Source of the DNA: Darksidea phi
Lineage: Eukaryota; Ascomycota; Dothideomycetes; Pleosporales; Lentitheciaceae
Reading direction: 5' to 3'
Length of the DNA stretch: 64,000 nt
Assembly (NCBI GenBank): GCA_030770425.1
Contig: JASJFT010000013.1
Span: 248,001 to 312,000 of the forward strand
The position numbers were made by a program, and so were the translations under genes. This document shows, one piece after another, positions 1 through 36,740 of this stretch. The notes under the pieces were generated by a model. The model was given only the letters and a program-made list of their open reading frames with translations. It made no database searches and was not told the origin of the DNA. Numbering within the stretch: the stretch's first letter is position 1; each line of letters begins with the position of its first letter.

Positions 1-1250
1 TAATAATACTATCTATATAAAGTTTAACTACTAGTTCGTAGTTATCTTTTTCCTTTTAGATTAGAAAAGTATTTATAATTAGTACGGAATTTCTTTAAGA
101 TCTCCCTCTACTTTATTTCTTTAATTCTTTAACTCGTACGGGAGGAGGTTCTTTTTTTCTTAGTCTTCTATACTTTCTTATATATAGTTATTTAACTTAG
201 ACTAGAGTAGATTTATTAGAATTAGTATCTTTACTTAATTAGTCGTTAGTTTTATACGAAGAAGTCTATTTACAATAGTATTCCTTAACTTATATATATT
301 ATATAGTAAGTAGTCTATTATTTAGATAGATAGTAATATCTTTATCTTTAATTCCTATAATTTCGTATAGGCCTATCTAACCTTTCTTTTCTCTCTATAT
401 TATAACTTCTATCTTAAGAGAAAGGTTAAGAATATTATATAATAATCTATTCCTTATATTTAGTACGTAGTTAATATCTAGTTTTATATATTCTACTCGA
501 ATTATTTTAATAACCTTTTATACGATATTAGCGTATTTAATAATATTTAGGAATAAAGAAGAATCTATATTAACTCGAGGATATATACTAAAGACGAGTA
601 GTATAGATATAATATTATTTAGGTCTACTATATCGTTTAAAGCTTTAACTACTATCTAGAGAAGTAATTTATTTAATATATAATTATTAAATTTAGCTTT
701 AAGAATATTAAATATACGTTTTAAGAATACGTATATATATTTTATCTTACTAATAGCCTAGTATACTTTAATAGATATCTATTAATATTCTACTCTAATA
801 ATCTTCGTACGAGCTCTAAATTCTTTTAAAGTAAAATTTATACTTAGATTATATATAATATAGTCTAGTAGTTCTTAGTATATATTAATCTAATATATAT
901 AGAGTATATTCTAAGTATCTTGTACGAAGAGTAATTTTAGAAATATAGTAGCTTAGAAGAAGATATTAGTATTAATTATATATAGGATATTCTTTCTACT
1001 AATCTATACGACGTTAATAATTATCTTATAATTAAAATAGATATTATTCTTAATTAAAAACTTAAATCTCTTTAGTATAGATCCGTACGATTAGTAGAAG
1101 TAATAGAATTTCGTAATCTATTCTAGTACTAATAGGTTTACTTCGTAGCTAGTATTTATAAGTAGATTATATAATCGTTTTATATAAGGGTAGTTAAAAC
1201 GACGATATAGCTAACGTAGCTCTAATTCTATAAAGAACGACGTTACGTCT
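1..1250 (-). mobile_element. RIP-degraded Ty1/Copia-type retrotransposon, integrase region, cut by window edge
   Basis: Read on the minus strand, about 1250 down to 1 gives a degenerate but recognisable Copia-type polyprotein. A GAG-pre-integrase zinc-binding segment lies at about 1206-1085: an HRRF..HPS-like stretch has both His codons turned to Tyr, and the CxxC pair is turned to YxxY. It is followed by the start of the integrase core (about 1060 to 700), in which the first catalytic Asp reads Asn. Every lost residue is explained by C-to-T or G-to-A change, and many Gln/Trp codons have become stops, as expected after RIP. The rest of the integrase plus RT and RNase H would lie beyond base 1. 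The family is known from fungal Copia elements; the assignment is by eye. Confidence 0.65.
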
Positions 1251-4200
1251 ACTAGACTAATATTAAAGAATAGATAACCCTATTTACGTATAATAGGAAT
1301 AGTTATTTTATTCTTTTATATAATATAATTAAGAACGTTATTAAAGTAGACCCCTAGTTAGTCGATATCTACTAGTAATAGTAGGAAGAATATTAGGGTA
1401 TTTAAGATATAGTAGATAACTATTCTAATCGAATTCTTAATCTATACGGTTTCTAAAGATATTACTAAATTCTATCTACTAAAGCTAATAGTTATATTAT
1501 AAGGTATTTAGTTAACTTTTATATAGGGGTTCTCGCGTATATATATCTTAAGTTATACTTTTCTAATAGTCGATATTTATACGGCGCTAGTATTCTATAG
1601 TTCTCCTTAGTATACTATACGATAATAGTCTTTAAGAAAGAATTAATTAGCTTAAGATTAATAGTCTTTATTAATTTTATAAATATCTTCGCTAGTTATA
1701 TAATAAAGATATACTACTAATATAAGATAGTTAAGTATATATTTACTCTTCTTAATATCTTTTTTAAATCTATTACTATTATCTTCGTATATAGTATTAA
1801 TATCTACGTTATTATTAGAAAGTTCTTTAAAGTCTATAATATAGATAGCTATCTTATTATATAAGGGCGCTTAGTAGTATATATTTTTAAAGAATATAAT
1901 ATACTATATTCTAGCTCTAGAATAATCTATATAATTATAATTTAATAACTAGTAACCTTCTTTATAATAAATAAAGTATCTTTTTCTTCTTAGTCTAGTA
2001 TTATTATCTCTTTCTTATACGGTAAATAGTCTTCCGTATAATTAGAATTATCTATACTAAAGTAGTCTATCTTATACTAGGTAGTATAAGTTATATTATT
2101 AGTTAATATAGAAAGTATCGTATAAGTTCTAGATATATTAGTTATTATTCTATTAATTAAGTAAGACTTATAATACTAACTAGAGGTTACTAAATAATCC
2201 TTTATATATTATCTTAGATAAGAGTAAAACTTATTCTAGCTTATAATATCTATAATATACTCGTAGTACTACTATATAAAGTTATATTTCTCTATAGAAC
2301 TATAGATTAAGTACTCGTTATACTAAAGTAAGCTTATCGATTATAGCTTCTAATACTTTATATAGTATCTTATCGGAATTCTCCTATCTTACCCGTACGA
2401 AGATTATTATAGTCTAGTTAGTATAGTATTAGCTATAGTTAATATCTATATTAAAGTATTTATTAAATACTTCGTATAGATACTTCTAAGTTTAACTAGA
2501 ACTAATAACTATTAAGTAGTAGATATTCGTATAACCCTTAAGAATATCTAGGAAGATATTTAAATATTAGAACTTATAAATCTTAAGATATCTATATAGT
2601 TTAATAAAGATTTATACCTTATTAGTAAGAATATTATATAGTTTACTAGTATAGTTATTCGTCTTTCTCTATATCTTTTAGAATTAGATAAGCTTTTTAG
2701 ATAGAAGGAGTATATTAGTATATTCTTAGATTAGTAGAAGTTTATATAGATTATATATCGGTATTAAAGCTAATCGATAGGGTAGCTATATAGTTAGTAG
2801 AGGGACTAAGGCTTTCTATACGAAAGAAGGAGGATTATATAACGGGTAGGTAGGCGTTACTCCCTACTATAGTAAGATATCGTCGTATAAAGGCTCGAGT
2901 ATATTCCTTAAAGGCTAAGAACCCTATCGGGTATCCTAGAGAGAAGAAGAAGAAGAAGGGGAAGGATCTTATTAGATATTCTTCCTATTCTTCTTAAGAC
3001 TTAGTTCCCTCTTTATATTATCGTATAGGTTATAGACTATAAGTCTTAAGAGTATTAATCTAGAACTCTTAATACTAAAGTTCTAGTATATAATATCGTA
3101 TAACTTCTATAATTAGATAGTCTTAGAATTTAAGACGGAGTATACGCCTCGCTTCTTAAGAATATACTTAAGCTCTCTTTTAAATATATAATTAGTATAG
3201 TTTTAATAACTAATAGTCTAGTCTTAAAAGTCTTTTAGAAAGCTTTATACGAAGATTTCTTCTACTCTACTTAACGTACGTAGTTTAATAAGTACGTATC
3301 TAACGTACGAGTTAAGCTAGATAATACCTTCCTCTAATTTAGTATTAATATTATTAAGGTTAATTCTATTAATCTAGTACTAAGAATTAACCTTATACTT
3401 TAGTATCGTTACTAAGATATTTATATTACGGGAGTATTTATTATACGAAGTATTATCCCTTCTTATTACTAATCTTTTCCCTTTTATATATAATAATAGT
3501 AGTAGGGGTTCTTATTTCTATATAAAGGATAAGAATTCTTCTTTATCCTCTATAAGTAGGAGTTAGACGGCTTATTTCGATATTATAGTTTAATTAGTTA
3601 GTATTACTTATACATTCGTACGATAGTAGAAGAAGAAGTAGATAAATCGCGGGCTTATATTCGTATAATATAGGTTAGTATAGTAGCTATACTATCGTAT
3701 TCTTATTATATAGAAGTAGATAGTATATTCGTCGATTTATTAGCTATTCGTCTTTATATAAAAGAAGTCGATCTTCTTTTCTATATAGATATACGAGATA
3801 GAGTTAATATATAGTACTTATTAACTTAATCTCTACTTTCTATATAGAATAGGTACGAAATAAAGTCTAAAGTAGTCTAGAAGGTCTTTATCTTTACTCT
3901 TACTAATTTACGATTTTACCGTATAGGGTAGAAGCTTATTATAGTAATTTATTAGCTTCTATCGTACGGTTTAATTATTAATTAGTATTAAATAGTCTAT
4001 AGTTTATAATAGTAGACTATAAAGATTTAACTAAGTAAATAGCTAGAGTATATATATACGTATATACGAAATAGAAATAATAAAATAATTTAATTTTAAT
4101 AATAATTTATAGTTTTTTAAAGAACTTTAGATAGAAGTCTCTTTTATCTAAAAGAATTACGCGAAGCTTTGTATATAATAAATTACTAAGAAGATAATCT

Positions 4201-4278
4201 ATATATATAAATCCCGCGCGACTATATATAATTAAACGTATAAGATTAGTATTAGAACTTAGTAAATAAATAATAGCC
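1251..4278. repeat. AT-rich RIP-mutated repeat DNA of unresolved class
   Basis: This TA-dominated stretch has no open frame and the same RIP-like composition as its neighbours. It probably includes the upstream gag/protease part and the LTR of the minus-strand Copia element, but no conserved motif could be fixed. A run at about 4242-4256 resembles a RIP-altered initiator-tRNA-Met primer binding site in plus orientation. That orientation does not fit the minus-strand integrase, so a second element may be present. Confidence 0.5.
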
Positions 4279-7200
4279 CTTATAGAAGCTATTAATATCT
4301 ATATAAAGGGCTTTATAAATTCTAAAGATACGAGAATTATAAATAACCTCTAATACCTAGTTATCTAGACTATTATTAACTTAGTTATAGGTACTAGTAG
4401 TAATAGTAGTTATATAAATAGTAATAGTAATAGTATTAGTTTATATCTAAGTACTAGTAAATACCCCTAAAGAATATATATAGAAGCTACTTTATTATCT
4501 TTCTTAGAAGAAAGTAATTATTCTATATCTAGAAGTATATTTTAAAAAGAATAAGTATAAGCTATATAAGCCCGTAATATAATAAAGTAAGATAATAATA
4601 TTTATATTCTACTTATAGTTCCTACTTTAATTTAACTTCTAAATCTAGTACTAATAGTTATCTAATAGACTATATATAGTACTATAGAACTCTAGATTAC
4701 TAATATCCCCCGGGCTATAACTATAAGAATAGACTAGATAATTATTCTAACTAGTAGAATAATACGTAACTAGCTTATAAAGTAGAAAACTTAAGAGAAA
4801 ATAATCTATACTATAAAGAATAATAAAGTTACCCTTCTATAAAAGTAGTATAATTATATAGTCTAGAACGTATAGTATAGCTTTAGAAGTCTCTTTAAGA
4901 AAGAGACCCCTATTACTCTATATAATATTAAGAAGGAGGTAGTAGTCTAAATAGAAATATAACTAATTAGCTACTAGCCCTCTAGATATAACCCTAATAA
5001 GAGAGGCTTAATTACTTAAATTATATTCTTTCTTAAGCTAATATAGTCTTTCTAGCTCTTTAGAATAAGTAATCGATCTAAAGAGATTATTAAAAAGATT
5101 ATAATAACCTAATATAAGAATAGCTACTAGGAATATTATAACTCTATAAAATATATAAAAGTAACGAGGTATATTTACTATAGTAATAGAATTATAGACT
5201 ATATTAGGTCTATTAGTATAGAGTATACTTATAAGAAAAGGTATATAAACTACCTAAAATCCTACTAATTAGGTTATAGTACCTACCCTATAGTTCCTAA
5301 GAGAGTTAATAGTAGGATTATTAAATCTACTAAGAAGGAACTTATAATAATTTAATACGTAGAATACTATACCTTTTAGTAGGTCTATAATCTTACTAAA
5401 TAATATATATAATAACTAGTTAAATAATAACTCTTATAAGAAGTATTATTAAGTAGTAAAAGAAGACTAGTTATAAAGACTAACTCTTTATAGTAGAGTA
5501 GTATAGCGGCCGTTAGTATCTAGAGAGGTAGAAAGTACCTTACTATATAGACTAGGATACTAGCTAAAGTAACAATTATTATACTATAAAGTACTAGACT
5601 AGTTAGAAATATCTTTTAGTATATCTTTCTTAATATTAAGTATCTATTAATATAAAGTATTATCTCCTAAAATAAGTATACTACTTTATTCTAAGAAGAG
5701 AATATAAATATAAATAATTCCTTTAACTTATATTAGGATAACTAACCTACTAATAATATATTTCTAAGAAGACTAAAAATATATAGATAGAATAGATTAA
5801 TATAAATAAAAAATCGTCTAGTTATATTACTACTCTAGAAATTATCTATAATAAGGAAATAAATATCTTATATATTTAGAAATCTTTTATTTATATAGAT
5901 ATATAAATCTTAATATACTTAAGCTTTATTTACTACCTACTAGTAGAAGTCTAGGACGACTTAAGGAAATAGGAAACTTAATACCTAAGAGTTATAATAT
6001 ATATTTAGAAGAAAGTAGAGCTCTATATTATATACTACTAGCTACTATAAAATAGAAATCTATAATAAATAAAGGTAAATAGTATATCTATACTAAATAT
6101 TTATAGATAATCCTAGGTACTATAAGTTCTAAATTACGTTATATATCTAATCCTTCCTTTATACTACTTAGTAGGGGGAGATTTTAATATTAAGTATAAT
6201 ATATTTAAACTAGAAGCTATAATATTCTAAAGGAGAGAGAAGCTTATTAAATAGGTAGTAGAGAGTAGTATAAACTTTATAAGAGAACCTAATAAGATAA
6301 CTTACTAGATAAAATATATTATTAATCTTACCTTTTTAAATATATCTTTTACTAAAATAGTTATTAGACTAGATTTATACTATAGCTTAGATTATATTAC
6401 TTAAGTTATTATAATCCTAGAATATAGTAAGTAGATACTTAAATAATATTATTATTATATCTTATAAAATAAACTACCTAAATTCGTAGGTATAGTCGCT
6501 TTAGATATATACTAAGTTTTAGATTCTAATAATTTATCTAGAGATAAGCTCGAAGTATATATAGATATACTTATCTAGATTATTAATAAGGGTATATATA
6601 TAATAAAGAAGACTAATTAAAAAATAGAATACTTAGCTCTTTAGTAGATAGAGGAGTACTATAAGACTCGTTAGTAATACTTATACTTAATAGAAGGATA
6701 TATAGAATAGAGTTCTATAAAGACTATCTATACTTTTTATACTATTATCTAAAAGACGAAATAAGAATATTAGTAATATATAATTAATAGTATTATAAAT
6801 AACTAGAATCTTTATAAAGTTATAGACTAGTACTAGTTTAAGCTAATATACCTAGATAAACTATTAATTATAAATAATAGAATTATCTATAATAAGAAGA
6901 AGAAAGTAAAGACCCTTTACGAGACTATACTATACTAGTTTAATATAGACGATAATCTTAATACCCTTCTATTACTATAGAAGGATCTTATACTTTTATA
7001 GAATAGTAGTCTCTTAATAAAGAAAATAAAGAAAAATACTATAGACGTTATAAGTACCTTACTAGGACTAAATAGAGTTATAGTTTAACTTCTTAAGATA
7101 TACTAGTATATTATTCGTAATCTTATTTATAGTATTTATTATAAATATTTATAGCTTAGCTACTTTTTATAAGTATAGAAACTAGTAGAAGTAGTTATAA

Positions 7201-9904
7201 TATCTAAGGTAGATAAGAAGAATAGAAGCTCTTTAAGGGCCTACTAATCTATAATACTACTATCCTATCTTAATAAAGGGCTAAAAAGGATTATTATAAG
7301 AAGACTAGTCTAGATAATAATAATAAAAGAGGTTTTTAGTCTATAGTATATAGAAGTCCTACCTAAGAGATTAGCTATAGATCTAGTTACTACCTTTATA
7401 TATAATACGAAGAGGGCCTTTATAAAAGATAAATATATAATAATAATTACTATAAATATCTAGGATATATTTAATATTCTATTAGTTAATAAACTTTTAT
7501 ATTATATAAAGGTCTAAGACTAGACTACTAGAATAATATAACTAATATATAGTTTCCTTATAAACTAGAAAGTATAAGTAAGATTAAATAAATTAATTAC
7601 TCTAAACTATCTAATATAGTATAGTATCTTATAGGGATTACTATTATTACTAGTCCTATATACTCTATACCTAGCTAAACTAATTAAGATTAAAGATAAG
7701 TAGTATTTTAGATATATAGATAATATCTACTTTTATAGAATTACTAATATACTAGAGAAGAATAATAGTCTTATTATAAATAATATTAGGGACGTTATTT
7801 AATAAGAAATAGATAATTAAGTTATATTTATACTAAAGAAGCTTAAAATAATTTATCTTATATAATAATAAAAATCTATAGTATCTTTCTATATAATAAA
7901 TAATACTCTAATAATTTATCTAATTATATAAAAATAAGATTTATTAAAGTAATTAACTCTTTAGTAACTTAGGATTTAATTTAACTATAAACTTATCTTT
8001 AAATATTATATAATAGAACGTATAGTAAAGGTCTATAAGATAGCCCTCTATATATAAAATTTAGTAAAAACTATCTATAGTCCCCCTATAGTTATACTAT
8101 AAAAAGTAATTATTATTTATATTATTCTATAACTACTATATAAGGTAAAAGTATAGTATAAAGATTATATAAAAATCTTTTTTATTAAATATTAGGTCTA
8201 AGTCCTAGAAGTTAATATTAGACTTAACGAGTACGTAGCTACTATATATAAAATACTTATCCTAGTAGTAAAAGGTATTCTACCTATATATAGGACTATA
8301 TCTATAGCTATACTATTTCGGGATATAGATCTATTCTTAGGTTATATTACCCTTAAAGAGATAAAGATTAGATTTACTATATATCTATAAACTATAGATA
8401 TAAACTACCTACTTATAAAGAGGGTCTAACTACTATAAATCTAGTAGAGTAGAGAGATAGAGATCTTATAGTATTCTAGAACTATTATTAAATAAGTAGA
8501 TACGCTATTAAATCTAGTTCTAAAATCTATTCTTATAAAGCTATACTTCTCTCCTAACTACTAAATAGACCTAACTAAGAGGATAAAGAAGAGGGTAGTA
8601 GTAAAGACTTTTAAGAAATAGTAAAGGTACCTCTTATATAAGAATATTACTATTTTCTTAGATAACTTAGAATAATAGTTTAAAAAAAGTAAGTATATTA
8701 CCTACGACTTTATAATATACTAAGAAGATAAAGAGATTAGATATAATAAGGGTTTTCTAAATATATACTTATATATATTTAATATAGAGATTATAGAGGT
8801 ATAAAGAGAATTAGAATATATTATATATAATCTAGCTCTTTATATAAAATAAATATAGATATATATAGATAGTATATTAGTTATATAATACCTATAAGGG
8901 AATATACTATTCTCTTTATAATAGGTCTTTCTCTACTACTAGTAGGTTATAGAGACGGTAGACGTCTAAATATACTAGACTCTAAAATATATAGGTATAT
9001 AGGGGAATAAAAGAGTAGATTAACTAGTAGATCTAGAGGTATATAACCCCTATCTACTAATATAGCTCGTAGCTAAACTAATAATTACTAGACTAAGGTC
9101 TAACGCCCGAACTAGACTCTATTTTATAAAGATAGAATAGTAGAAATAAAATAAGACTTAGCTCTCTATATAATATAATTAATAAGACCTACTATATATA
9201 AGTACTACTATACTAATAAAGCTTAGTCTTAGTCGTTAAAATCTTATTAAGCTACTATCGACTAGAACTATATATAGTAACTATATTTAGTATTATAAAA
9301 AATTTAAATATAAGAATATAAACCTTAACTATATATATAATAAAGAGAAGATTTTTAATTATATAGTTTACTATTTAAGGGCCCGTAGATAGTTTACTAG
9401 CTAGTTCTATAAACTAAACTAGTCTCTAATTAATATCTATAAAGAATTATAATATCTTAAAAAGCTTCTTAATAACTTAAAGGACTTTATTATCTTTATA
9501 GAATTAATAGGTCTTAAGAGGGCTAGTCTATAAGAATTATTAAGAAGGATTACTATATTTAATTAGCTTAAACTATAGACTTCTCGACCTATTCTTATAG
9601 GGGTCACTTTATAGTAGAAAGACTAAATAGCTATTACTTTATAACTATATACTAAGAATCTCTATTATATATTACTCCTCTATTATAATTATATAATATA
9701 AATATAAAAGAATAAATATTATATTATATTATATATTATATTATATATTATATTATATAGTATTTATTTAATATATAATTATAGGGCGAAAGTATTTATT
9801 TATACTACTATTTAGAACCCTCCTTTACTACTACTATTTTTACCTCCTCTTTATAATTACTTACGTACTACTTAACTATATATTAAATAATTATAAAAGA
9901 AACT

Positions 9905-9939
<35 letters not shown>

Positions 9940-10290
9940 CGAAATAAAAGAAATAGAATAAGAGGAATAATACCTATAAGATACTATAACTTTACCCTCC
10001 TAGGGTTAAATAAAAACTATAAAGGCTAATAAGGTTAGTACCTAATACTATACCTACTACTAGGTATAGATCTAGCGCCTACTAGCGCTAGATAGTACGG
10101 AATCTTTCTTACTTTACTCGTATAGAGGAGTCTAGGAGAGTTAAGATACTTAAATAGGAGTAGTATACGTACGAAACGTCTCCCCCTTACGGAGAGAGGC
10201 GCGTCCCTTATACCCTATAGGAGGTTTTTATAGATTAAGGCACCGGCCAATTCTATAGGACGTAAATTAATATAATAACAATAACAATAC
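4279..10290 (+). mobile_element. LINE (non-LTR retrotransposon) copy A, RIP-inactivated
   Basis: About 6.0 kb aligns by eye with 30727-36740 (copy B), with point differences that are mostly transitions. Plus-strand landmarks survive in degraded form. An APE-type endonuclease C-terminus lies at about 6365-6402 (RLDL...S.D-Y, where SDH has become S.DY). The reverse transcriptase YxDD box lies at about 7706-7728 and now reads YIDN. An RNase H Y-D-G-like box lies at about 8860-8878. The 3' end has (TATTA)n-like DNA at 9720-9760, a GAAATAAAA-type tandem repeat at 9895-9960 and a final AAC-type tail at about 10276-10290, a classic LINE end. No coding capacity remains. The 5' end is where similarity to copy B begins, so this copy may be 5'-truncated. 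Confidence 0.8.
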
Positions 10291-11288: not shown

Positions 11289-14200
11289 TCAAGCGCCGTC
11301 ATCCTGTAACTCGACATACAGCCTCAATTCCTTCTCCACCATAACATTGTACACCTTCCTTAGCTCCTCTCCGCTCAAGAACTCTTCCCTTAGATGGGTA
11401 AACGCCATCATGAGGTAGTCTTTACACCATGGCAACTGCGTCATCCCTTTAAAAAACGTCTCTTTGACCCTGCGATAGGCCTCCTCCACCCTTGATTCCT
11501 CCTTGCGCTTTTTTCCATCCCGTCTCGGCTTCTTGTTTGGCCGTTTCACCCTCTCTTTCGTCGCTTCTTCAAGTTCAAACAAAACGTGCTGTCTCCATAA
11601 CACAGGGCAGTGCGCACCCGCACCATCCTCGGCTTTCCTAAAGAGCGCGCGGATGGAGTGAGAGGTCGAACCAGCTATCTCACCTCTAAGCTTTTCATAG
11701 TGGATGGCGAAGGCCCAGCCCACGATACTACGTTCCTTGGCGTTGGAAAGTATGTTTTGGTGCATAATGGCTCTCACGCGGTCATCGATTGAGAAACGTG
11801 CTTCGTTGGCGGCGAACAGGGATAAGAGGATGGTGTTGTTTGGGAAACTCTTTATGAATGGCTCCAAGGTTGTGCGAAGAAGTAATGGCTTGACGATGGG
11901 AGCGTGATTAGCATAGTAAATAAGAAATTGCGCGATTGACTGGGCGTGTAGCTCTGCGGCCGGGCTTTGAGAAAGACTACGTTGAGCGAACCAGGTCAAG
12001 AGAGTGTTGTGTACCGCCAGTGCGTTTTCGGGATCCTCTCCACCCGATAGATAGCCAAGTAGAGCTAAGAGTGAGGTTGCCTTTATAGCGGTATAGTAAT
12101 CGTTTCTGATAAGAGCGTGCTCGCTCGTGTCGCTTAATACCGACCGCGAACGGAGTAAAGCGCTATAATCCGGTGTCTCCAATGTCTTTGACACTTGACC
12201 TGTGAGAGAAACCAGCCGCCACAGTGCTTCCTTGTGGTCACCTCGGCGCAGCGCCTCCCATACCCAATTGGCGAAAAGATCAAGGGCTCCCGGCGTGGAC
12301 AGGGCCTTTCCATCCTTTTTCATCGATAGCGCAGCGCTGAAGACCTGGTCTGCCTTCGTAGGATTTCCACAGCGCGACTCAACTAGACCATACGCGTTGT
12401 AGAGCCGTAAGCTGGATGGGTGAGCCTTTAGTAGCTTTTTCGCTGTCTTGAAAGCCTCGGCAGCAAAGTACTTGGACTCAAAGGCTAAAAGATATTCACC
12501 AATGCATTCATCGTAGTTAACGTCGGTCACCAAAAGCTTTAGTACACGCCTCACAAAGGCTGCGTCAATGGCGACCATAGCTTCTGGGAAACCTCGATCG
12601 AAGAGCAGCTCGGCGGTCATTTGGTACGCGTCCAATGGGCAGTTTGCATACTTGGCAAGTGATTGCGAAAAATGAGCCGACTTGTCCTGGTCAGCAGACT
12701 TTTGAAATCCAAATTGAAGAAACGGGTCGGATGACCAGTCCTGATCGTCTATTGCTGTGCCTAAAAGTGCGGGAAGGCGGCAGAATCGCAGAAATGTGCC
12801 CAGTATTAGGGGTTTAGAAATGCCCTGTGGAAGAGTCCGTAGCAAGTCTTCGATGTCTGAGTACAGGACTGTATGGAACGCGTCGTCTTCTCCAGCTTCA
12901 TCCGTTGTGCGGCCAGGATACCGCAGCTTGACAGTGTTGTCTAGCTCCCGTTTGCAGAAGTCTCGAAAGATTGAATGTGACGGGTCGTGTGCGTCCAAAG
13001 TGTCGGCATCCGTGGGCCTGGATAGTGCATCATCAAAACTGGAGGCGCTCCATCCCTTTGCGTTAACCTCGCCAATGCGAGGCGCTTCACTCTCCCAAAA
13101 CTCTTCGAACAGGTGTACGTTCTCCCTATCATCAACAGATTTGGGTTTCAAAAGATGAAACTCCAGCAAAGCTTGCCACGCAGCTATCGCCAACTCTTGA
13201 TAACCAGCTTGTTGAATCATGGATGTCAAGCGGAGAAGCATGTAAAGGAGGAATTCCACTCTTGCCTGGGGTGAGCCGGTCCTGATAGTGTGCAGGCACG
13301 TAAAGAAAGCGGTTCGGCAACCCTCATACTTGAAGCCGGTGAAGCTAGATTGCACGAAGTTCAGGTATTGTGTCCATAAACCTTCGTTCCGCGGAAACTT
13401 CGTCAAAATCTCCGTCCACTTGCTAGTTAATCGCCCTTCATCCCAGGACTTTGTTGCCTCAGACATCAATCTACCGTAGAGCTTGGCGACACTGTCTTCA
13501 TCGTTACCAACCTTTCTCAAAGCGTGTTCGTAGGTGGATATCCGAACGTCCGCGAGATGCCGTTTGTCGGAGCTGCTTAATTCTGACGACAATCGATCTA
13601 TCCTCATCATCGCCTCTTGATGGTATGCGAGATCGAACCAAGCTTGCACGTCTTCAGGATGCTCATGGGTTCTGCGCACCAGTTCTGAGTTTCGCCGAGT
13701 GGCCTCAGTGTCTTCATAGCTCACCAACGTCTCAGAGTCGTATTCTGCATCTGAATCCGAGAGTTTTGTGTCAGACCTCTTCTCTTCAAACCCGCGGTAA
13801 TCGGTCCCGGCGGCAATTTCTTTTTCGTTTTCCTCGCGTTTCCTCTTCCCTGTCGTTGAGATCGGGATGAAGTCAGCGCCAACGTCCTGCGTTTCTCTAA
13901 TTATCTTCAAGAACCGAAGATTGCGACTGCCGTCCTTTTCGGTATTCTTCTTTGCCAGGAGGCGCTCCTCTTGATGACGCCGTGCCGGAATTATTACAAT
14001 CTCTCTGTCGGTAGAGCGGTCCCTATCAATCCTCTTGTCCAAAGGAAGTCCTAGGATGCAACCATATCCGTAACTGCGATACGCAGGGATGTCGTATCTA
14101 TAGAGGCTGCCATATTTCACAATGTCTGGGTCGCCACGGCGATCGCTGAAGAATAGCTTGGAGGGTTCAGCGTCACGCACATGCGAGCGCTGCTGATCCT

Positions 14201-14408
14201 CATTCTTCGACCTGGAAGCGCTTTCTTTACCATATCTTTCATCTTCATAACCCGGCAAGGAATCGTTCTTATGCCGTGCCTTCTCTTTCGATCGTCTCGA
14301 GTTATCGGATGTCCTTGGCTGTTCTGGTCGCTGCGGTTCTTTCGATGCCTTCGCGGGCACCTTGGGCTTGGGTCGGAAGCTTGTGAATTTCGGGACGTTG
14401 GACGCCAT
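11289..14408 (-). CDS. NRDE2: NRDE-2 family protein (NRDE2 / fission yeast Nrl1-like)
   Basis: A single uninterrupted frame of 1039 aa starts at an ATG read from 14408. The N-terminus (about 1-170) is basic, Ser/Arg/Glu-rich and disordered, with the FTSFRPKPK opening typical of the family. Residues about 80-125 carry the DIPAYRSYGYGCILGL-type stretch found in fungal NRDE2. From about 230 onward is the NRDE-2 domain with half-TPR-like helical repeats (for example EDVQAWFDLAYHQEAM). Family knowledge: NRDE2/Nrl1 is nuclear, binds the Mtr4-type helicase (Mtl1 in fission yeast) and spliceosome factors, and acts in RNA surveillance, cryptic-intron control and siRNA/heterochromatin pathways. Length is close to fission yeast Nrl1. 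It is divergent from UTP10 across about 390 bp. No damage is visible despite lying 1 kb from the RIP block. Confidence 0.9.
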   Translation of the reverse strand: MASNVPKFTSFRPKPKVPAKASKEPQRPEQPRTSDNSRRSKEKARHKNDSLPGYEDERYGKESASRSKNEDQQRSHVRDAEPSKLFFSDRRGDPDIVKYGSLYRYDIPAYRSYGYGCILGLPLDKRIDRDRSTDREIVIIPARRHQEERLLAKKNTEKDGSRNLRFLKIIRETQDVGADFIPISTTGKRKREENEKEIAAGTDYRGFEEKRSDTKLSDSDAEYDSETLVSYEDTEATRRNSELVRRTHEHPEDVQAWFDLAYHQEAMMRIDRLSSELSSSDKRHLADVRISTYEHALRKVGNDEDSVAKLYGRLMSEATKSWDEGRLTSKWTEILTKFPRNEGLWTQYLNFVQSSFTGFKYEGCRTAFFTCLHTIRTGSPQARVEFLLYMLLRLTSMIQQAGYQELAIAAWQALLEFHLLKPKSVDDRENVHLFEEFWESEAPRIGEVNAKGWSASSFDDALSRPTDADTLDAHDPSHSIFRDFCKRELDNTVKLRYPGRTTDEAGEDDAFHTVLYSDIEDLLRTLPQGISKPLILGTFLRFCRLPALLGTAIDDQDWSSDPFLQFGFQKSADQDKSAHFSQSLAKYANCPLDAYQMTAELLFDRGFPEAMVAIDAAFVRRVLKLLVTDVNYDECIGEYLLAFESKYFAAEAFKTAKKLLKAHPSSLRLYNAYGLVESRCGNPTKADQVFSAALSMKKDGKALSTPGALDLFANWVWEALRRGDHKEALWRLVSLTGQVSKTLETPDYSALLRSRSVLSDTSEHALIRNDYYTAIKATSLLALLGYLSGGEDPENALAVHNTLLTWFAQRSLSQSPAAELHAQSIAQFLIYYANHAPIVKPLLLRTTLEPFIKSFPNNTILLSLFAANEARFSIDDRVRAIMHQNILSNAKERSIVGWAFAIHYEKLRGEIAGSTSHSIRALFRKAEDGAGAHCPVLWRQHVLFELEEATKERVKRPNKKPRRDGKKRKEESRVEEAYRRVKETFFKGMTQLPWCKDYLMMAFTHLREEFLSGEELRKVYNVMVEKELRLYVELQDDGA

Positions 14409-23868: not shown

Positions 23869-23936
23869 TATGGCATGAAGTTCGATCGGGAAGCGTAATA
23901 ACACAAAGATAACTCATCATGTCTAGATATATATAC

Positions 23937-24240
23937 GGAATCTCGATCCTCACAATGCTCGCCTAGGTTCTATGTAATGCGGAATTCCGTACTACCTTAG
24001 AACCAAACCAGTCACACGGAACCTCGATCCTCACAATGCTCACCTAGGTTCTATGTGATACGGAATTCCGTACTACCTTAGAACCAAACCAGTCACACGG
24101 AACCTCGATCCTCACAATGCTCGCCTAGGTTCTATGTGATACGGAATTCCGTACTACCTTAGAACCAAACCAGTCACACGGAACCTCGATCCTTACAATG
24201 CTTACCTAGGTTCTATGTGATGCGGAATTCCGTACTACTA
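23937..24240. repeat. 81-bp tandem repeat with palindromic core, about 3.7 copies
   Basis: The landmark GATCC recurs at 23945, 24026, 24107 and 24188, an exact 81-bp period. Each unit contains the palindrome CGGAATTCCG, flanked by outer inverted arms (GGTTCTA ... TAGAACC), so each could form a hairpin of roughly 40 nt. Copies differ by a few, mostly transitional, changes (for example TGATA/TAATG, CTCGCC/CTCACC). The array sits between divergent promoters. Its sequence is unrelated to the 80-bp repeat downstream. Confidence 0.9.
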
Positions 24241-24250
24241 CCGTCCTAGG

Positions 24251-24258
24251 GTATAAAT
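24251..24258 (+). promoter_or_regulatory. TATA box of the micro-exon peptide gene
   Basis: GTATAAAT lies about 125 bp before the ATG at 24376 and directly after the last 81-bp repeat. This spacing leaves a 5' UTR of roughly 80-95 nt. Confidence 0.6.
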
Positions 24259-24375
24259 GGACCCTATTCCCTTCAGCTTGGACCCTGCCATATACCATTT
24301 ATCAGACCTTTTTTTCACATAACTTATTCAAGTCTCTTCGATTTATTGGATACTTCCTCCAGCCCGCAAACAGAA

Positions 24376-26020
24376 ATGCGCGCTTTCGCAGTTTTGGTAG
24401 CAATGATGGTGGCAGCTGTAATTGCTGCACCTAATGTGCAGTCCTCATCAGACCTTGAAACGCGAGTAAGCATATAGTCTCATGAGTGGAGAAGACCTTA
24501 TGGTGGCAGATAGCTGACTGGATGTTGTTGGCGGATTAGCAAGTAAGTGTTCTCCCTCCTGTATAGACGGGCTCCGGTGATGATACCTGATGGCTGACTG
24601 GATGTTGTTGGCGGAATAGAAAGTGAGTGTTCTCCCTTCTGCATGGACGGGCTCTGGTGATGATACCTGATGGCTGACAGTATGCTATTGGCGGAATAGC
24701 CTGTAAGTGTTCTCCCTCCTGTATGGACGGGTTCCTGTGATGATATCTGATGGCTGACTGGATGCCGTTGGCGGAATAGCCTGTAAGTGTTCTCCCTCCT
24801 GTATAGACGGGTTCCTGTGATGATACCTGATGGCTGACTGGATGCCGTTGGCGGAATAGAAAGTGAGTGTTCTCCCTCCTGTATGGACGGGTTCCTGTGA
24901 TGATACCTGATGGCTGACTGGATGTTATTGGCGGAATAGCCTGTGAGTATTCTCCCTCCTGTATGGACGGGCTCTGGTGATAATACCTGATGGCTGATAG
25001 TATGCCGTTGGTGGAATAGTCTGTAAGTGTTCTCCCTCCTGCATGGACGGGCTCCGGTGATAATACCTAATGGCTGACTGGATGTTGTTGGCGGAATAGA
25101 CTGTGAGTGTTCTCCCTCCTATATGGACGGGTTCCTGTGATAATACCTGATGGCTGACTGGATGTTGTTGGCGGATTAGCCTGTGAGTGTTCTCCCTCCT
25201 GCATGGACGGGTTCCTATGATGATACCTGATGGCTGACAGTATACCGTTGGCGGAATAGAAAGTGAGTGTTCTCCCTCCTGTATGGACGGGTTCCTGTGA
25301 TGATACCTAATGGCTGACTGGATGTTATTGGCGGAATAGCCTGTGAGTGTTCTCCCTCCTGTATGGACGGGCTCCTGTGATGGTGCCTGATAGCTAACTG
25401 GATGTTGTTGGCGGATTAGCCTGTTGTAAGTGTTCTCCCTTCTGCATGGACGGGCTCTGGTGATGATACCTGATGGCTGACAGTATACTGTTGGCGGAAT
25501 AGCCTGTAAGTGTTCTTCCTCCTATATAGACGGGCTCCTGTGATGATACCTAATGGCTGACTGGATATTGTTGGCGGAATAGCCTGTAAGTATTCTCCCT
25601 TCTGCATAGACGGGCTCTGGTGATGATACCTGATGGCTGACAGTATACTGTTGGCGGAATAGCCTGTGAGTGTTCTTCCTCCTATATGGACGGGCTCCGG
25701 TGATAATACCTGATGGCTGACTGGATATTGTTGGCGGAATAGCCTGTAAGTGTTCTCCCTCCTGTATGGACGGGTTCCTGTGATGATACCTAATGGCTGA
25801 CTGGATGTTATTGGCGGAATAGCCTGTGAGTGTTCTCCCTCCTATATGGACGGGCTCCTGTGATGGTGCCTGATAGCTGACTGGATGTTGTTGGCGGAAT
25901 AGCCTGTAAGTGTTCTCCCTCCTGCATGGACCGGCTTCTCGGTGATGATACCTGATGACTGACTCGATATTGTTGGTATAGAACGTACGGTTCCGACGAC
26001 ACCCGTCGACAGACGTTTGA
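24376..26020 (+). CDS. Putative secreted Pro/Lys-rich peptide encoded by about 20 exons, 18 of them micro-exons
   Basis: Exon 1 (24376-24465, 30 codons) encodes a clean signal peptide (MRAFAVLVAMMVAAVIA, cleavage near A17/A18) and ends in phase 0 at GTAAGC. Then come 19 candidate introns, of 74, 77 (17 times) and 76 bp. Each has a GTRAG donor, a CTGAC/CTAAC/CTGAT branch motif and a TAG acceptor. They are separated by 3-nt exons at 24540, 24620, 24700, 24780, 24860, 24940, 25020, 25100, 25180, 25260, 25340, 25503, 25583, 25663, 25743, 25823 and 25903, plus one 6-nt exon at 25420-25425. These spell QKPPKPSTPKPPVPPPPPP. The last exon (25982-26020) gives NVRFRRHPSTDV and a stop, with a Kex2-like RR. 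Total 61 aa. All introns are phase 0, so skipping any micro-exon keeps the frame. The alternative is a single 1.5-kb intron containing a minisatellite. No family is recognised. Confidence 0.55.
24466..25981 (+). repeat. 80-bp tandem array of intron-like units (19 copies)
   Basis: Units recur every 80 bp, except one 83-bp unit around 25420. Unit order is donor GTRAGTGTTCTCCCTCCT, a variable GYATGGACGGG region, a branch motif in TGGCTGACTGG, then GTTGGCGGAATAG and three bases. The first and last units are the most diverged. Differences between copies are nearly all transitions, except in the three bases between acceptor and donor. The period is not a multiple of three and the plus frames contain stops, so the array cannot be a conventional repeat-protein ORF. 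Confidence 0.92.
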
Positions 26021-27916
26021 TCATATCTTGTCGCATGATATTCGGTAAGTTATAATAAGTCCTGCATCTATGCTGGTATGAGAATGTTAGCGAGATACTT
26101 ATTACCACTAGGGGAGGGTTGTCCACTGCTACTTTAAGCAGAGTTGTGGGATGTGGAATTGAGTATGTTGGCCTTGGCTAGGTTTTGTCTAGAAATTTCT
26201 AGGATTTCCCTAGTCTTCGTGCAAATGCAAAGGTCGTTTTTATCTATTCGGTCTCCGCCTTCATTGCCGCTGCATGTTAACTTGTAAATGTGCGCCTAGT
26301 GGTACGCTACTCCTTATATTTACTTCCAGCACAACAAAAACGCTCCGCTCCTTGGGCCACAACTCCGATCTGTCGCATCTCGCAGACATTGTGCAACAGA
26401 ACAACTCGGGCCCATCTGACCTCACCAAAACATGCCTAGCCTTTCCACTTTTGTACGTACTTGGAGCGATGGCGTTCTGACAGTGGTACTCAAGCCCCTC
26501 GCCGAGGTGCAGGCTTTGATATTTTCGGTCCATATCATGCTAGCCGGTCCCCATTGCCATGCCCACTATGGTTGAGACCCCCCACCCACTCCACCTTCCT
26601 GTATACCTCTCCTGTCTCGCCTTATTCCCTTCGATAGGCCGGTACCAGATATCTGGCCGGTGCCCAGTAGCGACCGGTTGTGATGGGCTCGAGAGGCATG
26701 AGGACGTGAGAGGCTCGGGCACATTTTTGTTCGGTCAGCGGCGGTACCAACGGCGGGTCTGCGGAGCTTGGGGGCAACGTGATGGATTCTCTCTAAGGTA
26801 CGAAAGCTTCCAAGTTACCGGGAAGTGGTGCGTTATACCGCATCTCGAAGTTGTGCGATAGCTGTATTGAAAGCCCGATTGCGGTTTCGATGCTGGATGT
26901 TCGTGGACTGAACAAGCGCTTGGGCCTTCAGAATCTCAGCCTTGCTCCCAGCTCGGAGTCGGATCTATGATATCCCGGAGCTTGGCAAAACTACGCACAG
27001 CCACAGGTCCCGCAGTCATCACAATCAATTACACAGTAATGATGTCGCACTGAGATGTACTAATATAGGATGCTAGGAACAATTTATGATGAATAGCAGA
27101 GTTGCATTGTGTGTGTGTTGTTGTCAGATTCGATGGGATCCTGATGATGTGGAGATATATGATGCGTATTGTCTGTGTCTATCTAGATCGTTGGTACTGG
27201 TTCTTGTAGTACGGACTCTAAGCAGCTAAGCAACGATCCCCCTTTTGGTTAGGCCACATGACCTACTTCACGCGACCTGTACTACGGGTACTGTATCCCA
27301 TGGTACTGAGCTGATACTACAGGAAACTGTATCCTGTAGTACGGCCAACCCGACCTTTCTTCAGCCACTTGATGAACGATCGGTTCCTTGTCTACTGGGC
27401 CACCTCCTGAGGCATCTACCAAGGGCCAGGAGCAGCACCAATCTGACAACTATAGTGTGCTTTAAGCACTACGCAACTCTGATACAGGAGATGCAGTAGA
27501 GGTAAAGGATTTTATATAGTAATTTGTAAGGCAAGAGTGTTACTCCTGTGTCCTTTTAATAGAGTGTGCGAAATATATACAAGGAAGTACTTAGGCAAGG
27601 CGTAGCTATGACTTGCTGTGTCAGCGTAAGGGGTCAGCAGCGGTGGCAATTTGCCACTAGCAGCAGGGAGGACGGCCGACACGCACCGGCACAGACCTTG
27701 CGCGGGAGGCGTTTTTGGGTTTTTGGTTGTACGTGAGAAGAAAATAGATTGCCGCGGCATGTACTGAGTGAGTTGGCGCTAAGACATGTTCGGTAGGGCT
27801 ACCGGTTTAGGGCCTCCCCCGCGGGACCTAACGTAACAGCCCGTGTTGTTCACGATAATGCCCGTAACTACAGACGATGAACAATAGGCTGTGTGAGGCT
27901 ACAAAACTTTTGCTAC
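26021..27916. other. Intergenic region, no supported gene
   Basis: It begins with the 3' UTR of the peptide gene. A GTAAGT donor at 26045-26050 could mark a 3' UTR intron. Scattered short frames (26261-26861, 27245-27499, 27512-27760) lack domains or splice support. A diverged dispersed repeat lies at about 27640-27790 (see 40275-40420). Confidence 0.4.
27640..27790. repeat. Diverged dispersed repeat, member 1
   Basis: The segment containing GCAGGGAGGACGGC, CCTTGCGCGGGAGGCG and, further on, GCATGTACTGAGTGAG is recognisably similar to 40275-40420 in the same order and orientation. No ORF or clear terminal repeat was found, so the class is unknown. Confidence 0.4.
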
Positions 27917-30281: not shown

Positions 30282-33200
30282 CCGAACACCAATTTTTCTG
30301 GATTTTCAGATTGGTAATTTTTATCATTTTTCTATCTAATCCTAGTTGAAACGGGCCTGAATTTTCGAATTCTAGCCTTTATCTACCCTCTACTCATCGC
30401 GCTATTGCGCTGTAATATAAATAGTAGAAATTATAGAGTCTATAGTAGTATCCGGGGCGACCCCCCCTAATAGCTAGTAGCCGTCCTTCCTCCTAGAGGG
30501 CGGTATAGGGCTAGTAGGGCTTAAGTCTACTAGATAGAATAATATTCACGCCTCTAAAAGGTACCGTATAATAGATATTCACGCGCTAGTACGTCTTTAA
30601 CTTAATAGTAGTATAAATACCTAGGATAAGGCTAGAGCGGTAACTAATACTATCTCTAGCGCGATTACCCCCTATCTTACTACTATTAGGTATACTACTT
30701 AAAGATATAAAGTTATTACTATAATTCTTATAGAAGCTATTAATACCTATATAAAGGGCTTTATAAATCCTAAAAATACGAAAATCGCGAATAACCTCCG
30801 ATACCTAGTTATCTAGGCTATTACTAACTTAGTTATAGGTACTAGTAGTAATAGTAACTATATAAATAGTAATAGTAATAGTACTAGTTTATACCCGAGT
30901 ACTAGTAGATACCCCCAAAGAACGTACGTAGAAGCCGCTTTATCGTCTTTCTTAAGAGAAAGTAACTATCTTATATCTAAAAGTATATTCTAAAAAGAAT
31001 AAGCGCGAGCTATATAAGCCTATAATATAATAAAGTAGGACGATAATATTTATATCCTACTTATAATTTCTACTCTAATCTAGCTCCTAAACCTAGTACT
31101 AATAGCTATTTAATAGGTTATATATAGTACTATAGGACTCTAGATTACTAATATTCTCTAGACTATAACTATAAGAATAGACTAGGTAATTATTCTAGCT
31201 AGTAGGATAATACGCGACTAACTTATAAAGTAGAAAATTTAAAAGAAAATAATCTATACTATAGAGGGTAATAAAGCTACTCTTCTATAGAAGTAGTATA
31301 ACTACGTAGTCTAGAATATATAGTATAGCTTTAGAAGTTTCTTTAGAGAAGAAACCTCTATTACTTTATATAATATTAAGAAGGAGATAGTAGCCTAGAT
31401 AGGAATATAACTAATTAGCTACTAGCCCTCTAGATATAGTTCTAATAAGAGAGGCTTAATTATCTAGGTTATATTCTTCCTTAAGCTAGTATAGCCTTTC
31501 TAGCTCTTTAGAACGAGTAATCGATTTAAAGAGATTATTAAAAAGACTATAATAGTCTAATATAAGAACGATTACTAGGAATATTATAACCCTATAAAAT
31601 ATACGAAAGTAGTAAGGTATATCTACTATAGTAATAGAATTATAGGCTATATTAGACTTACTAGTATAGAGTATACTTATAAGGAAAGGTATATAAACTA
31701 CTTAGAACCCTACTAGTTAGACTATAGTATCTACCCTATAGTCCTTAAGAGAGTTAATAGTAGGATTATTAAACCTACTAAAAAGGAACTTACGATAATT
31801 TAATATATAGAACGTTATACCTTTTAGTAGGTTTACGACCTTACTAAATAATATATATAATAATTAGTCGAATAATAACTCTTATAAGAAGTATTATTAA
31901 GTAGTAAAGGGGGACTAATTATAAAGATCGACCCCTTATAATAAAGTAGTATAGTAGCTACTAGTATCTAAAGGGGTAGAAAGCGCCCTATTATATAGAC
32001 TAGGACGCTAGTTAGAGTAGTAGCTATTATACTATAAAGTACTAGACTAGTTAGAAACGTCTTTTAGTATACCTTTCTTAATATTAAGTATCTATTAATA
32101 TAGAGCGTTATCCTCTAAAATAAGTATATTATTTTATTTTAAGAAAAGAATATAGATATAAACAACTTCTCTAACTTATATTAGAATAACTAATCTACTA
32201 ATAATATATTTTTAAGAAGACTAAAGATATATAGATAAAATAGATTAATATAAATAAGAGATTACCTAGTTATATTACTACTCTAGAAATCGTCTATAAT
32301 AAGAAAATAGATATCTTATATATCTAAGAATCTTTTATCTATATAGGTATATAAATCTTAATATACCTAGGCTTTACTTACTATTTACTAGTAGAAGTCT
32401 AGAACGACTTAAGAGAATAGGAAGTCTAGTACCTAAGAATTATAATATATATTTAAAAGGAAGTAGAGTTTTATATTATATACTACTAGCTACTATAGAA
32501 TAGAGATCTATAATAGATAGAGGTAAATAGTATATCTATACTAAATATCTATAGATAACTCTAGATACTATAAGCCCTAGATTATATTATATATCTAACC
32601 CCCCCTTTATACTACTTAGTAGGGGGAGATTTTAATATTAAGTATAATATATTTAAACTAGAAGCTATAATATTCTAGGAGGGAAAGAAGCTTATTAAAT
32701 AAATAATAAAGAGTAATATAGACTTTATAGAAGAATCTAGTAAGATAACTTATTAGATAGGATATATTATTAATCTTACCTTTTTAAATATACCTTTTAC
32801 TAAAATAGTTATTAGACTAGACTTATACTATAACTTAGACTATATTATCTAGATTACTATAATTTTAGAGTATAATAAGTAGATACTTAAATAATATTAC
32901 TATTATATCCTATAGAATAAATTATTTAAGTTTATAGATATAGTTACTCTAGGTATATACTAAGTCTTAGATTCTAGTAATCTATTTAGAGATAAGTTTA
33001 AAGTGTATATAAATATACTTATCTAGATTATTAATAAGGGTATATATATAGTAAAAAAGATTAACTAAGAAATAAAATACTTAGCTCTTTAGTAGATAGA
33101 GGAGTATTATAAGACCTACTAGTAATACCTATACTTAATAGAAGAATATATAGAATAGAATCCTATAAAGACTACTTATACTTTTTATACTATTATCTAA

Positions 33201-36200
33201 AAGATAAAATAAGAATACTAGTAATATATAATTAATAGTATTATAAATAACTAGAATCTTTATAAAGTTATAGACTAGTACTAACTTAAGCTAATATACT
33301 TAAATAAACTATTAATTATAGATAATAAAACTATCTATAATAAAAAGGAGAAAGTAAAAATTCTTTATAAGGCTATACTATACTAATTTAATATAGACGA
33401 TAATCTTAATATCCTCCTACTATTATAAGAGAACTCTATACTTTTATAAAATAATAGTCTCTTAATAGAGGAAATAGAGAGAAATACTATAGATATTATA
33501 AGTACCTTACTAGAATTAAATAGAGTTATAGTTTAACTCCTTAAGATATACTAGTATATTATTTATAACCTTATCTATAATATTTATTATAGATATCTAT
33601 AGCTTAGCTACTTCCTATAAGTATAGAAACTAGTAAAAGTAATTATAATACCTAAGATAGATAAGAAGAATAGAAGCTCTCTAAGAGCCTATTAATCTAT
33701 AGTACTACTATTCTACTTTAATAAAGGGCTAGAAAGGATTATTATAAGAAGACTAGTTTAAATAATAATAATAAAGGGGGTTCTTAGTTTATAGTATATA
33801 AAAGCTCTATTTAAAAGATTAACTATAGATTTAATTACTACCTTTATATATAACGTAGAGAGAGTCTTTATAAGAGATAAATATATAATAATAATTACTA
33901 TAGATATCTAAGACGCGTTTAATATTCTATTAATTAATAGACTTCTATATTATATAAAGATCTAAGACTAGACTATTAGAGTAATATAACTAATATATAG
34001 CTTTCTTATAAACTAAAGAGTATAAGTAAAACTAAATAAATTAATTACCCTAAACTATTTAGTATAATATAGTATCTTATAGAGATCGTTACTATTACTA
34101 ATTTTATATACTTTATATCTAGCTAAACTAATTAAGATTAAAGATAAGTAGTATTTTAGATATATAGATAATATCTACCTCTATAAGGTCGCTAATATAC
34201 TAGAGAAAAGTAATAGCTTTATTATAAATAATATTAGAAACGTTATTTAGTAGAGAATAAATAATTAAATTATATTTATATTAGAAAAGTTTAAAATAAT
34301 TTATCTTATATAATAATAAGAATCTATAGTACCTTCTTATATAGTAAATAATACTTTAATAATTTATTTAACTATATAGGAATAAGACTTACTAAAGTAA
34401 CTAGCTCTTTAGTAGTTTAGGGTCTAGTTTAACTATAAGCTTATCTTTAAATACTATATAATAGAATACGTAGTAAAGACCTATAAGATAGCCCTCTATA
34501 TATAGGACTTAGTAAGAACTACCTATAATCCCCCTATAGTTATACTATAAAAAGTAGTTATTATTTATATTATCCTATAATTATTATATAGGGTAGAAGT
34601 ATAGTATAAAAATTATATAAAGGTCCTCTTTATTAAATACTAAGTCTAAGTCCTAGAAGTTAATACTAGACTTAATAAGTACGTAACTACTATATATAAA
34701 ATACTCGTCCTAGTAGTAAGAGGTATTCTACCTATATATAGGATTATACCTATAGCTATATTATTTTAGAATATAGATTTATTTTTAGATTATATTATTC
34801 TTAAAGAGGTAAAGATTAAATTTATTATATATTTATAAATTACGGATATAAGCTACCTATTTATAAAGAGAATCTAACTATTATAAATCTAATAGAATAA
34901 AAGAATAGAGACCTCGTAGTATTCTAGAACTATTATTAAATAGATAGATATATTACTAGATCTAGTTCTAAGATCTATTCTTATAAAGTTATACTTCTCT
35001 TCTAACTACTAAATAAACCCGATCGAGGGGATAAAGAAGAGGATAGTAGTAAAGGCTTTTAAGAAATAATAGGAATACCTCTTATATAAGAATATTACTA
35101 TTTTCTTAAATAACTTAGAATAATAGCTTAAAGGGAGTAAGTATATTATCTATAACTTTATAATATATTAAGAAAATAAAGAGATTAAATATAATAGAGG
35201 CTTTCTAAATATATATTTATATATATTTAATATAGAGGCTATAGGAATATAGAGGGGACTAAAATATATTATATATAATCTAGCTCTCTATATAAAATAA
35301 ATATAGATATATATAGATAGTATATTAATTATATAGTATTTATAAGAAAATATACTATTCTCCTCGTAATAGGTCTTTCTTTACTACTAGTAGACTATAG
35401 AGATAGTAGATATCTAGGTATACTAGACTCTAGAATATATAAGTATATAAGAGAATAAGAGAGTAGACTAACTAGTAAACTTAAAAATATATAACTTCTA
35501 CCTACTAATATAGCTCGTAGCTAAACTAATAATTACTAAACTAAGATCTAATACCTAAACTAGACTCTATCTTATAAAGATAGAATAGTAGAAATAAAAT
35601 AAGACTTAGTTCTTTATATAGTATAATTAGTAGGACCTATTATATATAAGTACTACTATACTAGTAAAGCTTAGCCTTAGTTATTAAAATCTTACTAAAC
35701 TACTATTAACTAGAACTATATATAGTAACTATATCTAGTACTATAAGAAATTTAAATATAAAAATATAAACCTTAACTATATATATAGTAAAGAGAAAAT
35801 CTTTAATTATATAATCTACTACTTAAGGACCTATAAATAGTTTACTAGCTAGTCTTATAAATTAGACTAGTTTCTAATTAATATCTATAAGGAGCTATAA
35901 TATCTTAAAGAGCTTCTTAATAATTTAAAAGACTTTATTACCTTTATAGAGTTAGTAGACCTTAAGGGGGCTAGTCTATAAAGATTATTAAGAAGAATTA
36001 CTATATCTAACTAGTCTAAACTATAGACTTTCTAATTCGTTCTTATAGGGGTTACTTTATAATAAAAAGACTAGATAGTTATTACTTTATAGCTATATAT
36101 TAAGAACCTCTACTATATATTACTCTTTTATTACGATTATATAATATAAATATAAAAGAATAGATATTATATTATATTATATACTATATTATATATTATA

Positions 36201-36740
36201 TTATACGGCGCCTATTTAGTATATAACTATAGAATAAAAGTATTTATTTATACTACTATTTAGAACCCCCCTTTACTACTACTATTTTTACCTCTCTCTT
36301 ATAATCGCTTATATACTACCTAACTATATATTAAATAATTATAAAAGAAACTAAATAAAAGAAATAAAAGAAATAAAAAAAATAAAACGAAATAAAAGAA
36401 ATAAAATAAGAGGAATAATATCTATAAGATACTATAATCCTATCCTCCTAGGGTTAAATAGAAATTATAAAGGCTAATAAGGTTAGTATCTAATACTATA
36501 CCTACTACTAGGTATAGATCTAGCGCCTACTAGTACTAGATAGTACGGAATCTTTCTTACTTTACTCGTATAGAGGAGTCTAGGAGAGTTAAGATACTTA
36601 AATAGAAGTAGCGTACGTACGAAACGTCTCCCCCTTATAGAGAGAGGCGCGTCCCTTATACCCTATAGGAGGTTTTTATAGATTAAGGTACCGGCCAATT
36701 CTATAGGACGTAAATCAATACAACAACAACAACAACAATA
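30282..36740 (+). mobile_element. LINE copy B, 6.46 kb, RIP-inactivated, with target-site duplication
   Basis: The element is bounded by identical 13-bp duplications and ends in a CAA-type tail at 36718-36740. From 30727 it matches copy A throughout. The endonuclease S.DH remnant lies near 32815-32855, the RT YIDD remnant (YIDN) near 34155-34178 and the RNase H box near 35305-35325. Many CpA/TpG sites have become TpA. The first roughly 130 bp (30282-30410) are of normal composition and not RIP-like. They are probably 5' UTR absent from other, 5'-truncated copies, or transduced flank. There is no coding capacity. The order APE endonuclease, RT, RNase H and the 3' simple-repeat tail fit the Tad1-type LINEs of filamentous fungi. 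Confidence 0.88.

Follow-up and report, generated by a model that had tools for sequence, protein, structure and literature searches.

A candidate secreted-peptide gene with mostly single-codon exons between tandemly copied short introns in a Pleosporales fungus

A real and striking layout of introns and micro-exons occupies positions 24376–26020 of the window, the 64,000-nucleotide stretch of fungal DNA analyzed here (positions 248001–312000 of contig C35 in a genome of 51.35 Mb and 477 contigs). With a probability of roughly 0.6, we read it as a gene for a small secreted prepro-peptide, the mature part of which would be encoded mostly by one codon per exon between tandem short spliceosomal introns. 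The sequence-only reading had proposed such a secreted-peptide gene, which stands as the best reading of the sequence, whereas its hint at introner-like elements does not.

The gene model (forward strand) comprises exon 1, 19 introns, 18 micro-exons, and a last exon that together give a spliced length of 186 nt and a product of 61 amino acids. Exon 1 (24376–24465) holds 30 codons (translation MRAFAVLVAMMVAAVIAAPNVQSSSDLETR) for a predicted signal peptide and a short propeptide ending in LETR, and stops in phase 0 at the donor GTAAGC, just as had been read from the sequence. Intron 1 (24466–24539, 74 nt) is followed by 17 introns of 77 nt alternating with the 18 micro-exons (24540–25905), by intron 19 (25906–25981, 76 nt), which has diverged from the other units and ends in the acceptor TATAG, and by the last exon (25982–26020), in which 12 codons (NVRFRRHPSTDV) precede TGA, so that the claimed in-frame stop and 61-aa product are recovered. 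The micro-exons are CAA, AAA, CCT, CCT, AAA, CCT, TCT, ACT, CCT, AAA, CCT, CCTGTT, and then six times CCT, and contribute the residues Q K P P K P S T P K P PV P P P P P P. Seventeen of them are 3 nt long and only one, at 25420–25425 (CCTGTT, Pro-Val), is 6 nt long, in agreement with the acceptor-to-donor gaps first reported; a GTRAG donor, a CTRAY motif, and a TAG acceptor, claimed for every unit, can likewise be read in all 19 introns.

Tandem Repeats Finder delimits an 80-bp unit in 18.3 copies at 24509–25976, a span that opens midway through intron 1 and closes shortly before intron 19 ends. Although they lie outside the repeat, the donor of intron 1 and the acceptor of intron 19 agree with both the reading frame and the splice consensus. 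Every junction in the model is in phase 0, and skipping of micro-exons leaves the frame intact, while retention of any intron introduces an in-frame stop (19 of 19) and no stop codon occurs among the 18 micro-exons. The single length change among the 17 full units amounts to 3 nt and is located in an exon. All ORFs that overlap the array region are shorter than 100 aa, and unspliced or antisense coding was rejected as an explanation, as ORFs of at least 30 aa that touch 24300–26100 reach 94 aa at most.

The window contains the string TAGNNNGTRAGT 18 times (17 of these within the array), against an expectation of 1.37 from shuffles. The longest chain of GTRAG...YAG introns separated by 3- or 6-nt exons has 19 members and lies at the array, compared to at most two elsewhere on both strands of a 254,000-base sample (the window plus 19 further stretches, 15 of which come from its own contig; 2,000 bases entered the count twice). 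Any motif inside a tandem repeat is multiplied along with it, and the units do not amount to independent trials, so both counts describe the layout rather than selection.

The predicted product looks like a prepro-peptide. Its start is hydrophobic (mean Kyte-Doolittle value of 2.77 for residues 3–18 of exon 1), and LETR followed by Gln falls exactly on the junction between exon 1 and the first micro-exon, where a Pro/Lys-rich part would begin; a cut after LETR would be Kex2-like. The micro-exons supply 19 of the 61 residues, which is nearly all of the putative mature part that extends from LETR to the last exon. A search of the genome with the spliced protein returned the gene itself and one place at chance level (E = 4.9), hence no paralogue, and Pfam gave no match. 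Among 5.8 billion proteins no relative sharing three 5-residue words was found, in a search that is insensitive for so short a peptide.

The 80-base unit has 19 matches among the best candidates scored in the 51.35-Mb genome, all of them inside the array. Two fully listed patterns designed for Pro micro-exons gave 35 genome places, of which 11 are in the array, against 27 for the reversed control (TAGCCNGTRAGT) and 34 places, none in the array, against 23 for the control (CAGCCNGTRAGT), without a second cluster in either case. A third pattern, TAGNNNGTAAGT, matched 404 places compared to 369 in the control; among the 100 matches listed, eight fall within the array, and just one further close pair is seen, on contig C57, with its members on opposite strands. 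Arrays with other codons, exon lengths, or donors could escape such patterns. Although the units carry the splice signals expected of introner-like elements, as judged from their letters, the unit was found at one locus only instead of in many unrelated genes and is therefore not an introner-like element. The distances between units fit expansion of the array by local tandem duplication or unequal exchange: introns 11–12 differ from introns 17–18 at one and three positions, 13 from 15 and 4 from 5 at two each, and 6 from 11 at one, while the mean difference in the array is 8.7 of 77. The array also carries changes like those of repeat-induced point mutation (RIP), with transitions in 14 of 19 G/C columns in RIP context (CpA/TpG) versus 9 of 28 other columns (Fisher p = 0.008).

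These RIP-like changes are compatible with a different history, which we consider unlikely though worth weighing, in which the intron array grew as a non-functional minisatellite in a dead or untranscribed gene and the splice signals were simply inherited from one ancestral unit. The single locus without a detected relative would suit such a history, as would recent copying, which could keep signals alike where some intron pairs differ at only 1 of 77 bases. The pattern of variation argues against it. For the constraint tests, the 17 full introns were aligned, with introns 1 and 19 excluded and only the last three bases of the 6-nt exon included; 27 of the 77 intron columns vary while 11 splice columns are constant, namely, donor positions +1, +2, +4, +5, and +6, the branch C, T, and A, and the acceptor T, A, and G. 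Donor position +3 (A/G), the branch R, and the branch Y do vary, but remain within their working sets. By a hypergeometric estimate, P is 0.026 when the eight columns of donor and acceptor are taken and 0.006 when the branch brings them to 11; both values are rough, since copies within an array do not vary independently. The comparison gives moderate support for constraint on the splice sites, which leaves the dead-array history some room. The intact frame, the signal-like exon 1, and the integrity of both unique ends of the array also speak against that history.

Two other features of the alignment are less discriminating. Diversity averages 0.47 in the exon triplet versus 0.11 in the intron, and among 80 triplets that of the exon ranks first in variability (0.468), by a small margin over intron triplets reaching 0.446 and 0.426; with that margin, positive selection on the micro-exons is not claimed, and the excess could stem from recombination. 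Near-identical introns with differing neighboring exons (pairs 11/17, 4/5, and 3/13) may lie at the edges of duplicated blocks. Where exon and donor meet, TpG is intact in all 13 rows that hold it, yet 3 of 16 other listed TpG/CpA column pairs without a known splice role are equally unchanged, and protection of the donor TpG from RIP was rejected as a distinguishing feature. In favor of the gene model, AG is scarce between donor and acceptor: apart from +5 and +77, where each of the 17 introns has it, this dinucleotide turns up only at 24, 51, and 58 (4, 2, and 5 of 17, respectively), whereas the composition of a single unit would predict about 4.2 per intron.

Less probable still is the view that the micro-exons are mostly skipped and that either exon 1 is spliced straight to the last exon or few of the donors are used, to give a 42-aa or other short in-frame peptide, the array acting as one long composite intron. 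The phase-0 junctions would tolerate any such skip, and very small exons may be skipped or may impede recognition, according to the accessible part of one study (PMC4674806). Against this, donor, branch motif, and acceptor are kept in each unit. An intron of 1516 nt would, moreover, be far above the length usual in such fungi. In favor of the gene model, branch A of the second CTRAY and the acceptor are 22 nt apart in the array, compared to a genome median of 23.5 nt that has a wide spread and comes from a noisy background of 24 putative introns obtained with a rough ORF-joining script. Two details tell against the model: an additional CTRAY lies at +45 in each full intron, so that the branch site is only a candidate, and C and T occupy donor positions −2 and −1 in 13 of the 18 micro-exons, contrary to the usual consensus. 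GTAAGT or GTGAGT donors occur in 3 of the 24 putative genome introns.

That the introns themselves are the product, released as small RNAs from tandem introns as in the SNORD115/116 host gene (accessible portion of PMC11608373), is very improbable and intronic snoRNAs were rejected: near-identical tandem introns do flank tiny exons and a box C-like GTGATGA is present at consensus positions +35 to +41, but the window contains no Rfam family at gathering score, the fold of the one unit tested is not unusual (z = 0.02), and the C-like box differs among units and is only 3 and 10 nt from two CTGA motifs, which is too close for a C/D snoRNA.

Returning to the secreted-peptide gene, a possible promoter lies immediately upstream. 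An 81-bp tandem repeat (23935–24238, forward strand, 3.8 copies) contains CGGAATTCCG four times, with starts at 23980, 24061, 24142, and 24223, and is located directly 5′ of a TATAAA box (24252–24257, forward strand) whose role is suggested by its position. These four palindromes are the only occurrences of CGGAATTCCG in the 254,000-base sample, where the looser CGGNNNNCCG occurs 45 times, and the repeat and 5′ region match only themselves in the genome, with no paralogue. Sites of the CGGAATTCCG type are presumably of the kind bound by zinc-cluster activators, and the repeat is possibly an activator-binding promoter element. Its period of 81 bp is almost that of the intron array, although the two sequences appear unrelated by eye.

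Transcription would start from this TATA promoter with its palindromic repeats, after which each intron of 74–77 nt would leave as an ordinary short intron, in succession; removal would be stepwise, since simultaneous binding at both sides of a 3-nt exon is hardly possible, and strong GTRAGT donors may compensate for the poor exon bases. A block on donors near a fresh junction, which the exon junction complex exerts in human cells (PMC6224609), would hinder a strict 5′-to-3′ order of splicing here. Two cleavages of the product, one behind the signal peptide and one behind LETR, would leave a Pro/Lys-rich peptide with Gln as its first residue. Unequal recombination could add or remove 80-bp units and with each unit one residue, and skipping of micro-exons could yield shorter in-frame forms. 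At about even odds, we regard the array as a coding minisatellite, 96% of which (77 of 80 nt) is intron and the unit of which is an intron plus a codon; unequal recombination would then shift the secreted peptide by exactly one residue per step with the frame kept, and splice choice would add variants in length and composition.

The wider locus includes genes for NRDE2, pieces of UTP10, phosphatidylserine decarboxylase, ferric reductase, AMP-binding/Mug62 proteins, acyl-CoA thioesterase, and adenosine deaminase. The best match of the NRDE2 protein (11289–14408) is from Lentithecium fluviatile CBS 122367 (Pleosporales, family Lentitheciaceae; 69% identity), which, judged from this protein alone, places the host as a Pleosporales fungus close to Lentithecium. 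AT-rich blocks with 20–28% GC, of the sort to which RIP-affected repeats lead, are present at 1–10000 and about 31000–36000 and adjoin DNA with 38–62% GC; the same AAATAAAAG tandem repeat is found at 9905–9955 and 36353–36406, each time near the right-hand edge of an AT-rich block. Downstream of the gene (query 25976–27200), 12 other genome places are alike at 68–78% identity, and one of the matches spans 26422–27043, a region that by this resemblance is an old dispersed repeat.

Several elements of the proposed gene are already known, i.e., single exons of 1–3 nt, micro-exon genes, and multiplying introns, as described in the accessible portions of the sources cited here. Exons of 1 or 3 nt occur in Arabidopsis APC11 (PMC4674806), Fusarium CYP621A (PMC12940212), and Drosophila hth (PMC7392893) and can be spliced, also in a fungus, but each of these genes has one such exon in the text available, as opposed to 18 in a row here. 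The micro-exon genes of schistosomes, as far as their description could be accessed (PMC5825161), share secreted products, largely short symmetric coding exons, and frame-neutral splicing that can vary the product. Their exons measure 6–36 bp rather than 3 nt (once 6 nt) and make up about 80% of the coding region, whereas the 18 symmetric micro-exons here give 19 of 61 residues, and the accessible part of that paper does not describe an array of copied introns; in the candidate gene 18 of the 19 introns largely repeat one unit, the first of them only in its 3′ half. No micro-exon gene protein was found as a candidate homologue sharing three 5-residue words, in a search insensitive for short peptides, nor as a Pfam match. 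Aphid bicycle genes (PMC9168663) are also putative effector genes with many micro-exons, but almost all of their internal exons are in phase 2 instead of phase 0, and the part of the source at hand makes no mention of tandem copied introns.

The introner-like elements of Dothideomycetes share near-identical spliceosomal introns with the array, but are present in hundreds of copies in unrelated genes, according to the accessible text (PMC4457414), in contrast to the one locus here. In the same partial source, other intron duplication in Zymoseptoria tritici, including tandem duplication within genes, accounts for <1% of single intron gains. Stwintrons (PMC8469720, accessible part) likewise require the consecutive removal of closely packed fungal introns, but there one intron interrupts another, whereas the introns described here are complete and lie side by side, 3 or 6 nt apart, with a codon between them. 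The combination of tandem copied introns with single-codon exons is, as far as these sources extend, in none of the compared systems. A literature search that had most subscription journals outside its scope found no such gene, and the earlier remark that no known gene is a head-to-tail intron array with 3-nt exons holds within that scope.

If spliced as read, the locus would place 18 consecutive micro-exons, 17 of them single-codon, in a natural gene and would be an extreme test of exon recognition and of the order of intron removal. Ordinary gene finders are probably blind to genes of this kind, and more of them could be hidden. Should RNA confirm the model, the number of introns would set the length of the peptide. 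If our proposal is true, a coding minisatellite would be a new mechanism by which a secreted peptide evolves and diversifies, and tandem intron duplication would be a route of peptide evolution that is unable to break the reading frame.
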